Below are positions 25,701 to 27,688 of a stretch of 64,000 bases of DNA, one piece after another. Each line of letters opens with the position of its first letter. Position 1 is the stretch's first letter. The DNA comes from Mucilaginibacter paludis DSM 18603 (GTDB lineage: Bacteria; Bacteroidota; Bacteroidia; Sphingobacteriales; Sphingobacteriaceae). The stretch spans positions 3,118,432 through 3,182,431 of the forward strand of contig NZ_CM001403.1 in the NCBI RefSeq assembly GCF_000166195.2. Direction: 5' to 3'. A program made the translations under genes and the position numbers. The notes under the pieces are model-generated. The model did no database searches and had not been told where the DNA came from. It saw nothing but the letters and a program-made list of their open reading frames with translations.

Positions 25701-26993
25701 ATGAGCCAATATTATATCATAGATTTCGATAGCACTTTTACACAGGTTGAAGCTTTAGACGAGTTAGCCCGTATTTCATTAAAAGACCGTTTAGATAAGG
25801 AAAAGATATTTAAACAGATTGAAAATTTAACCAACGCTGCTATGGAGGGCCGCTTGTCGTTCTCCGAAAGCCTTGAGGCGCGCGTAAGGCTGTTGCAGGC
25901 CGATCAGATCCATCTTAAGCAGCTTGTTAAGCATTTAAAAAAGAAGGTGTCGGCATCGTTTTCTCGCAATAAGGATTTTTTTAGAGAGAATGCCGATAAA
26001 GTTCTGATTGTTTCAGGCGGCTTTAAAGAGTTTATCACGCCCGTTGTTACCGAATACCACATTAAAAAAGAAAACATCTACGCCAACACTTTTGAGTTTG
26101 ACGAAGAAGGTAACATCATTGGCTACGATACCGAAAATCCACTTTCGCAGGAAGGCGGCAAGGTTGCCCTGTTAAGGCAGCTGAATCTGCCCGGCGAGAT
26201 TTTTGGCATTGGCGACGGCCACTCTGATTTTCAATTGAAGGAATCGGGGATGATTAAAAAGTTTTTCGCCTTTACTGAAAATATTGAACGCAAGGCCGTG
26301 GCCGAAAAAGCCGACCATATTACCCCCAGCTTTGATGAGTTTTTGTACATCAACAAGATGCCGAGGGCTATATCCTATCCCAAAAACAGGATCAAGTGCC
26401 TGGTTGTAGGTAATATTGACGAAGAAGCGCTGGCTATGATGCGCAAAGAGGGTTACAACATCAGGCAGCGTGAAAGCATCGAAGAAAAATACCTGGAAGA
26501 AGCCGGCGTATTATTTTGCGACGAAGCACACCAACCCACACCCATGCAACTGGAGCAGGCGGGCAGATTAAAAGTAATAGGTTGTTTTGGGAAGATAAGC
26601 AACCGCAAAATAGCCGATACGGCTGGTGAAAACGGAATTATTATTTTTGACGATCCGAAACATAACCCCCGCAATGCCGAATTTATCCCTAAACGGGTAA
26701 TAGACTTTATGAACGAGGGTAAAACGCACATGAGCTGCAACTTTCCCGAATTGCAGCCGCCCCGTGTTAACAATGCGCACAGGCTTATCCACATCCATAA
26801 AAACGTGCCCGGCATCCTGGCTCAAATTAACGAGGTGTTTGCCAAGCACAATATCAACATTGTGGGTGAGTTTTTGGTTACCAACGCTCAAATTGGTTAT
26901 GTAATTACCGATGTTAACAAAGGTTATGATCAGCAAATATTAACCGAACTTAAAAAGATCGAACATACCATTAAGTTCAGGCTGTTATATTAA
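25701..26993 (+). CDS. Phosphoserine phosphatase fused to SerA fragment and ACT domain
   Basis: Chimeric serine-pathway protein of 430 aa. Residues 1-~220 are a HAD-IB phosphatase like SerB: DFDST (8-12), SGG loop and GDGHSD (171-176). From about 229 the sequence follows SerA: RIKCLVVGNI, LKVIGCFGKISNRKIADTA and GIIIFDDPKHNPRN, then jumps directly to FMNEGKTHMSCNFPE, omitting the NAD-binding domain. The C-terminus (about 357-430) is an ACT domain (HRLIHIHKNVPGILAQINEVF ... IKFRLLY) like the serine-sensing ACT of SerA. The ATG at 25701 is chosen over a TTG at 25671. Likely role: phosphoserine to serine with feedback control; this is inference. Confidence 0.85.
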   Translation: MSQYYIIDFDSTFTQVEALDELARISLKDRLDKEKIFKQIENLTNAAMEGRLSFSESLEARVRLLQADQIHLKQLVKHLKKKVSASFSRNKDFFRENADKVLIVSGGFKEFITPVVTEYHIKKENIYANTFEFDEEGNIIGYDTENPLSQEGGKVALLRQLNLPGEIFGIGDGHSDFQLKESGMIKKFFAFTENIERKAVAEKADHITPSFDEFLYINKMPRAISYPKNRIKCLVVGNIDEEALAMMRKEGYNIRQRESIEEKYLEEAGVLFCDEAHQPTPMQLEQAGRLKVIGCFGKISNRKIADTAGENGIIIFDDPKHNPRNAEFIPKRVIDFMNEGKTHMSCNFPELQPPRVNNAHRLIHIHKNVPGILAQINEVFAKHNINIVGEFLVTNAQIGYVITDVNKGYDQQILTELKKIEHTIKFRLLY

Positions 26994-27005
26994 GGTTGGG
27001 TAGTT

Positions 27006-27208
27006 TGGAGTTCTAAGTCTTGAGCCGGGAGTTCTGAGTCAGGAGTCCTAAATAGAAAAATACAGCGTCCGCATTCCGGTGCCGGACTTTGCTAATGACT
27101 CACAACTTTAAGGGCTCGTGGCTCAAGACTCAGAACTCCCGGCTCAAGGCTCAAGACTCAGAACTCCCGGCTCAAGGCTCAGAACTCATGACTCCCGGCT
27201 CAAGGCTT
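27006..27208. repeat. Intergenic GACTCAAGACTCAGAACTCCCGG repeat tract
   Basis: The left part (27006-27050) reads gagttctaagtcttgagccgg and similar. The right part (27114-27208) holds at least three units of the opposite strand form, ctcaagactcagaactcccgg. An unrelated 63-bp spacer separates them. The final unit contributes the stop codon of the adjacent uspA gene (TGA at 27200-27202, reverse strand). Same family as 1441-1580 and 6283-6316. Confidence 0.75.
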
Positions 27209-27688
27209 AGCTTCCTCTTCTTTCATCGGTATTACCAATACAGCTACCGGCGAGTGCCGCACGATAGATTCGGCAACGCTACCCATTAAAAAACGGTCTA
27301 AACCTGTTCGGCTATGGGTGCCAATTACAATCAGGTCGGCTCTGAAGCGGGCGGCGCAATCGATAATCGTATCCGAGGTTGAGCCGATCTCGTTAAACTG
27401 GGTAACTGTTAAACCACTGCCTAATTTGTCTATGGTGTCATTTATCAATTTTCGCGAGTATTCCTGCTGGGCGTTAATAACTTCTGCTTCCTCTACTCCG
27501 CCACTCAATGATGGGATGATCGATCCCATCATGCTGCTGTCGTTCAGCGGGGTAGTAACCACGGGTTCAACAATATGAACCAGCGCTACTTCGGCATTAA
27601 ACTGGCGGGCGAGTTCAAAACCATACTGCGCCGCGTTTTCGGCATATTTACTATCATCGATACCAATTAAAACTCTTTGAAATTTCAT
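27200..27688 (-). CDS. Universal stress protein, single domain
   Basis: UspA-family protein of 162 aa, Rossmann-like alpha/beta fold. The N-terminal VLIGIDDSKYAENAAQYGFELA and the C-terminal nucleotide-binding motif IGTHSRTGLDRFLMGSVAESIV (G-x2-G-x9-GS pattern) indicate an ATP-binding type. The last codons and stop (KP then TGA) lie in the intergenic repeat, so the C-terminus may have been altered by repeat insertion. Stress or starvation induction is usual for the family. Confidence 0.92.
   Translation of the reverse strand: MKFQRVLIGIDDSKYAENAAQYGFELARQFNAEVALVHIVEPVVTTPLNDSSMMGSIIPSLSGGVEEAEVINAQQEYSRKLINDTIDKLGSGLTVTQFNEIGSTSDTIIDCAARFRADLIVIGTHSRTGLDRFLMGSVAESIVRHSPVAVLVIPMKEEEAKP

Follow-up and report, generated by a model that had tools for sequence, protein, structure and literature searches.

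Feedback of L-serine on its own synthesis is usually described as a control exerted at the first step. In the type II SerA (D-3-phosphoglycerate dehydrogenase, PGDH) of Escherichia coli (PRK11790, PDB 1PSD/1YBA), L-serine is contacted by His344, Asn346 and Asn364, and its binding at the ACT interface makes the unit composed of the substrate lobe and the ACT domain rotate against the NAD domain (PMC6300728). The dimer contacts are made by the NAD domains and by the ACT domains, and some PGDH ACT domains have lost serine binding (PMC6300728). Mycobacterial SerB2 is an ACT-bearing phosphatase inhibited by serine, with the order ACT-ACT-PSP, PSP standing for phosphoserine phosphatase (PMC10564941). 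A third arrangement, known here from its match and title only, is that of a Dunaliella GPDH (PDB 6IUY), where an N-terminal PSP-like HAD domain is fused to a glycerol-3-phosphate dehydrogenase, with no remnant.

The protein considered here has 430 residues and is encoded in the genome of Mucilaginibacter paludis DSM 18603 (8.4 Mb, single contig), within the window, that is, the whole stretch of 64,000 nucleotides that was analysed. It shares with E. coli SerA the fold of the lobe and the serine contacts of the ACT domain, but it lacks the NAD domain, Arg60 and the Gly-Gly hinge, and a phosphatase is fused in front. Like SerB2, it joins a PSP fold to ACT (PMC10564941). However, the two N-terminal ACT domains of SerB2, which bind serine by other residues, are absent, and a lobe and a single ACT domain derived from SerA are found instead at the C-terminus. 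The two proteins are likely of independent origin. The order HAD-lobe-ACT is shared with full fusions from other families of the Bacteroidota (L055-L071), which are about 43–50% identical over residues 1–326 and 43–64% over 326–430; unlike the 430-residue protein, these retain the NAD domain (192–193 residues) and the SerA active site. Enzymes of the serine pathway regulated by ACT domains are already known, and the present arrangement is a new variant. No description of this protein was found in the open-access literature searched, and passages from published work on GapMind and on gap filling from fitness data name no serine fusion of this type. From its sequence, the protein is proposed, with a probability of roughly three in four, to be the phosphoserine phosphatase of the cell, equipped with a built-in L-serine sensor and born by excision of the NAD domain from a fusion.

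Domain organization of the 430-residue protein

The reading frame is unbroken, and alignment shows that the start methionine is shared with homologues (Table 1). Pfam and NCBIfam profiles assign residues 5–202 to HAD/SerB and residues 234–325 to the SerA substrate domain (2-Hacid_dh). Residues 326–430 match positions 306–410 of the PRK11790 profile, the C-terminal end of SerA. No match to the NAD-binding domain (PF02826) was found in the protein with Pfam. When solved SerA chains, including that from E. coli, were compared with phmmer, residues ~224–329 aligned with chain positions ~1–128 and residues ~330–430 with ~303–410; nothing in the protein matched the middle of the chains, which is the NAD domain.

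An alignment was assembled from 63 proteins of this kind (cut forms) and 17 full fusions. All 17 full fusions have 192–193 extra residues between N325 and A326 (PKHNPRN/AEFIPKR). As read from this alignment, the missing block is exactly the NAD domain, and the two halves of the SerA substrate domain are directly joined over residues 228–345. The original prediction of a HAD phosphatase joined to a SerA-like segment devoid of its NAD domain, followed by ACT, is thus borne out by the profiles, phmmer and the alignment with the full fusions. It had rightly placed the skip of the NAD domain after PKHNPRN, but had set its exact position at NEGKTH, and the junction lies 13 residues earlier.

Table 1. 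Features of the SerB–SerA remnant–ACT gene, in positions of the window
Feature	Coordinates	Strand	Basis
Whole gene, SerB-(SerA substrate domain)-ACT	25701..26993	+	430 aa plus stop; kept in genus and family
HAD-IB phosphatase domain, SerB-like, residues 1–222	25701..26366	+	TIGR01488, TIGR00338, PSP folds, invariant catalytic residues
SerA substrate-binding domain, N-terminal part, residues 228–325, predicted catalytically dead	26382..26675	+	PF00389 at 234–325; SerA fold; Arg60 equivalent lost
Deletion junction, NAD-binding domain gone	26675..26676	+	63 cut forms aligned with 17 full fusions
SerA substrate-binding domain, C-terminal helix, residues 326–345	26676..26735	+	PRK11790 match; full-fusion alignment; fold ranges crossing the junction
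ACT domain, residues 358–430, predicted L-serine sensor	26772..26990	+	PF22629; E. coli SerA serine contacts; PMC6300728

Distribution of the cut form

The cut form was matched over its full length in all 49 good Mucilaginibacter genomes and in 115 of 121 Sphingobacteriaceae genomes, representing 20 of the 22 genera sampled. Its identity ranges from 76 to 88% across the genus and is about 58–69% over most other members of the family. The retention of the architecture across genus and family excludes chance or an assembly error and, together with dN/dS values of 0.007–0.033, rules out a frameshift or a pseudogene. Four of the six family genomes without a match are all the sampled members of a single genus whose genome size is near 2 Mb (G456, G474, G486 and G494; family f1, genus g186), in which the type III SerA is kept and the fusion is missing.

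One cut fusion was found in a genome from another family (G328, L212:5839-7131). Its phosphatase part clusters with genus g3 of the Sphingobacteriaceae (support 99/92); its ACT part forms a long branch with a position within the cut clade that is not settled by the C-terminal tree. The grouping with g3 fits a transfer, not a cut form that arose anew in this lineage, and this gene looks to have been so acquired. The same genome encodes a 384-residue ACT-bearing SerA adjoining serC (L219:1375-3638). Pairing of the cut form with a type III SerA is therefore not universal, and G328 may have two serine sensors.

Probable origin by excision from a complete fusion

In a phylum-wide sample, uncut SerB-SerA-ACT fusions in a single frame of about 625–690 residues were found in 30 genomes from five other families. 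The 430-residue protein aligns with them in two pieces, roughly 1–326 and 326–430. The 17 full fusions, a few single variants aside, retain the motifs for NAD and for catalysis, GYGxIG, NLSRG and PHIGGST. A serC-like aminotransferase gene, identified from sequence reading only, lies downstream of two of the uncut genes (L213 and L216). In a distant genome (G409, L211:1851-3724, minus strand), serB and serA are separate genes with stop and start overlapping as ATGA, which plausibly represents the state before fusion.

Phylogeny of the SerB and SerA parts had been put forward as a check in the original prediction. In midpoint-rooted trees, the cut forms make up one clade nested among the fusions, both for the phosphatase (100/97) and for the C-terminal, ACT-containing part (98/99), and their sister group consists of the f47 fusions in both cases (93/80 and 95/91, respectively). 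The stand-alone SerB of G345 forms a long branch placed among the fusions; with the roots set at the midpoint, a split at a later stage may have occurred in this case. The presence of the uncut fusion in five families and the nesting of the cut clade in both trees support a loss of the domain, and the sequence of events, fusion first and excision of the NAD domain second, is well supported. The separate joining of a SerB to a fragment of SerA is unlikely, as the two trees concur on a placement within the full fusions. The idea of a transplantation from SerA to SerB by domain loss thus holds for the loss; the ACT domain does not seem to have moved from a separate SerA, since SerB and a complete SerA-ACT would have fused first.

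The SerA remnant and the ACT domain

Structures were predicted with AlphaFold for the whole protein and for residues 223–430, using sequences from the genus only, with moderate confidence (69.8 and 69.2). In agreement with the earlier expectation of SerA similarity, a fold search with the model found that the two pieces of the lobe build one PGDH substrate-domain fold, with Z-scores of 14.6–14.8 (about 14.7) over 109–117 residues for several PGDHs, and the matched chain ranges cross the absent NAD domain. The ACT part of the model gave no separate fold match. The linker and the ACT domain are modelled at low confidence, so that nothing is concluded on how the domains are arranged. The equivalent of Arg60 of E. 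coli SerA (position 274) is an arginine in 17/17 full fusions and in none of the 63 cut forms. The protein has the substrate-domain fold of a D-3-phosphoglycerate dehydrogenase, without its NAD domain and substrate arginine.

The ACT domain matches PF22629 with an E-value of 3.2e-12 (46.9 bits for a threshold of 27). H366, N368 and N386 correspond to His344, Asn346 and Asn364 of E. coli SerA and are invariant in all 80 proteins (63/63 cut, 17/17 full). Neither the cut nor the full forms have the Gly-Gly hinge that links lobe and ACT in E. coli SerA. The ACT domain is predicted to be an L-serine sensor.

Within the cut forms, identity averages 0.83 for the HAD domain, 0.81 for ACT and 0.60 for the remnant; within the full fusions, the averages are 0.54, 0.66 and 0.68. 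As sampling depth is unequal between the two sets, the domains are more safely compared by their rank inside each set. The lobe thus passes from the highest rank in the full fusions to the lowest in the cut forms. In 28 close, non-independent pairs, dN/dS was 0.008 for HAD, 0.007 for ACT and 0.033 for the remnant. By this measure, constraint on the lobe is relaxed about fourfold, yet the lobe is clearly retained under purifying selection.

The lobe and ACT could be an inherited scaffold for dimerization or stability of an unregulated phosphatase over which serine would have no control. The loss of serine binding in certain PGDHs offers a precedent (PMC6300728), and a lobe that has lost the substrate arginine and is the fastest-evolving part would be in keeping with such a role. 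This explanation is nevertheless considered unlikely: mere scaffolding gives no need to keep all three serine contacts, which none of the cut forms has lost, and constraint on the ACT domain equals that on the catalytic domain.

A separate SerA without ACT domain

The original prediction had also suggested a search for a separate SerA. One is present at 6.536 Mb in the same genome, in a serC-serA pair. It consists of 316 residues with PF00389 and PF02826 only and is, by its domain content, an ACT-less type III enzyme. SerA of this type was found in 120 of 121 family genomes. Among the f4 genomes with an uncut fusion, nine also have a type III SerA with 56–59% identity, and three more have a weaker match (36–41%). 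The 18 genomes of f8, f9, f10 and f47 that carry uncut fusions gave no close match to a separate type III SerA. The coexistence of a fusion and a separate SerA suggests that loss of the NAD domain could be tolerated.

It is distinctly improbable that the lobe and ACT act in trans, joining the type III SerA and relaying the serine signal, so that step 1 would be controlled with or instead of step 3. The lobe has indeed been kept under purifying selection with a SerA substrate-domain fold, and the type III SerA co-occurs in nearly all genomes of the family. However, E. coli SerA dimerizes through its NAD and ACT domains (PMC6300728), the former being absent from the 430-residue protein and the latter from the type III SerA. 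Moreover, conservation is lowest in the remnant, and the genomes without the fusion retain the same SerA.

The phosphatase domain

The score of the protein with TIGR01488 (HAD-IB) is 64.2 bits, above the cut-off of 45. With TIGR00338, the serB equivalog profile, it is 74.4 bits, below the curated cut-off of 144.15; 7 of 14 control genomes are likewise without any score above this cut-off. The 430-residue protein has the best TIGR00338 score of its own genome, where the other matches are partial and lie within large open reading frames of 567–922 residues; no second SerB-like phosphatase was found in this genome by the TIGR00338 profile search. The DxDxT, S, K and GDxxxD motifs are intact in 63/63 cut forms, and D8, D10, E17, R61, S105, G107, K154, D172 and D176 are invariant in the 80 aligned proteins. 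E17 and R61 are presumably the equivalents of Glu20 and Arg56, which bind the substrate in the archaeal PSP structure. The phosphatase part of the model matches human and bacterial PSP folds with Z-scores of 16–17. Taken from its sequence, the protein is likely a phosphoserine phosphatase catalysing the last step of serine synthesis.

Another phosphate ester as substrate, with another amino acid sensed by ACT, is hardly credible despite the low TIGR00338 score and weak matches to further HAD-IB families, given the invariance of E17 and R61, a serC-serA pair in a genome where no other SerB-like phosphatase was found, the past fusion to SerA, and the stand-alone homologue overlapping serA in G409.

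Proposed history and mechanism

The comparisons support the following origin for this presumed phosphoserine phosphatase with its own serine sensor. Stand-alone serB and serA genes would have given a SerB-SerA-ACT fusion, from which the NAD-binding domain would have been excised in frame at both hinge points in the lineage of the Sphingobacteriaceae. The substrate-binding lobe would then close into one domain with ACT still attached, and PGDH activity would be left to the separate type III SerA encoded beside serC. It is presumed that phosphoserine is the substrate, that serine binds and that it inhibits the phosphatase. Two subunits would pair through their ACT domains and, by analogy with the rotation in E. 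coli SerA, serine binding would shift the lobe/ACT unit against the phosphatase, lowering activity. Control would fall on the final, irreversible step; apart from this ACT domain, no domain predicted to sense serine was found in the pathway.

The feedback brake was probably shifted from the first to the last step of the pathway. There is a good chance that allosteric control was moved within the pathway by fusion and NAD excision, with a sensor-free SerA taking over step 1, and that this family of soil bacteria controls serine synthesis at the last step. If so, serine feedback acts on the last rather than on the first step. The separate genes that overlap in G409, the complete fusion of five families, the fusion alongside a redundant SerA in f4 and the cut form of the Sphingobacteriaceae make up a stepwise record, open to testing, of how an allosteric switch can be passed between enzymes. 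Taken as pairs, the full and cut enzymes offer a natural experiment for studying the coupling of a mobile ACT unit with a catalytic domain new to it. There is also a warning for annotation, as a strong SerA match can come from a protein unable to be a dehydrogenase.

Repeats beside the two serine loci

Directly 3' of the fusion gene, positions 26999–27210 of the window hold an array of direct and inverted repeats of the GGCTCAAGACTCAGAACTCCC type, up to 47 nt long. The 21-nt core of this repeat has 6 copies genome-wide at ≤1 mismatch, and its reversed control has 0. The gap between serC and serA (L007:796-1161, ~6.536 Mb) is taken up by AGTTATTA in some 27 copies and, after these, by CAATAAC repeats, and length variation in this gap could influence the expression of serA.
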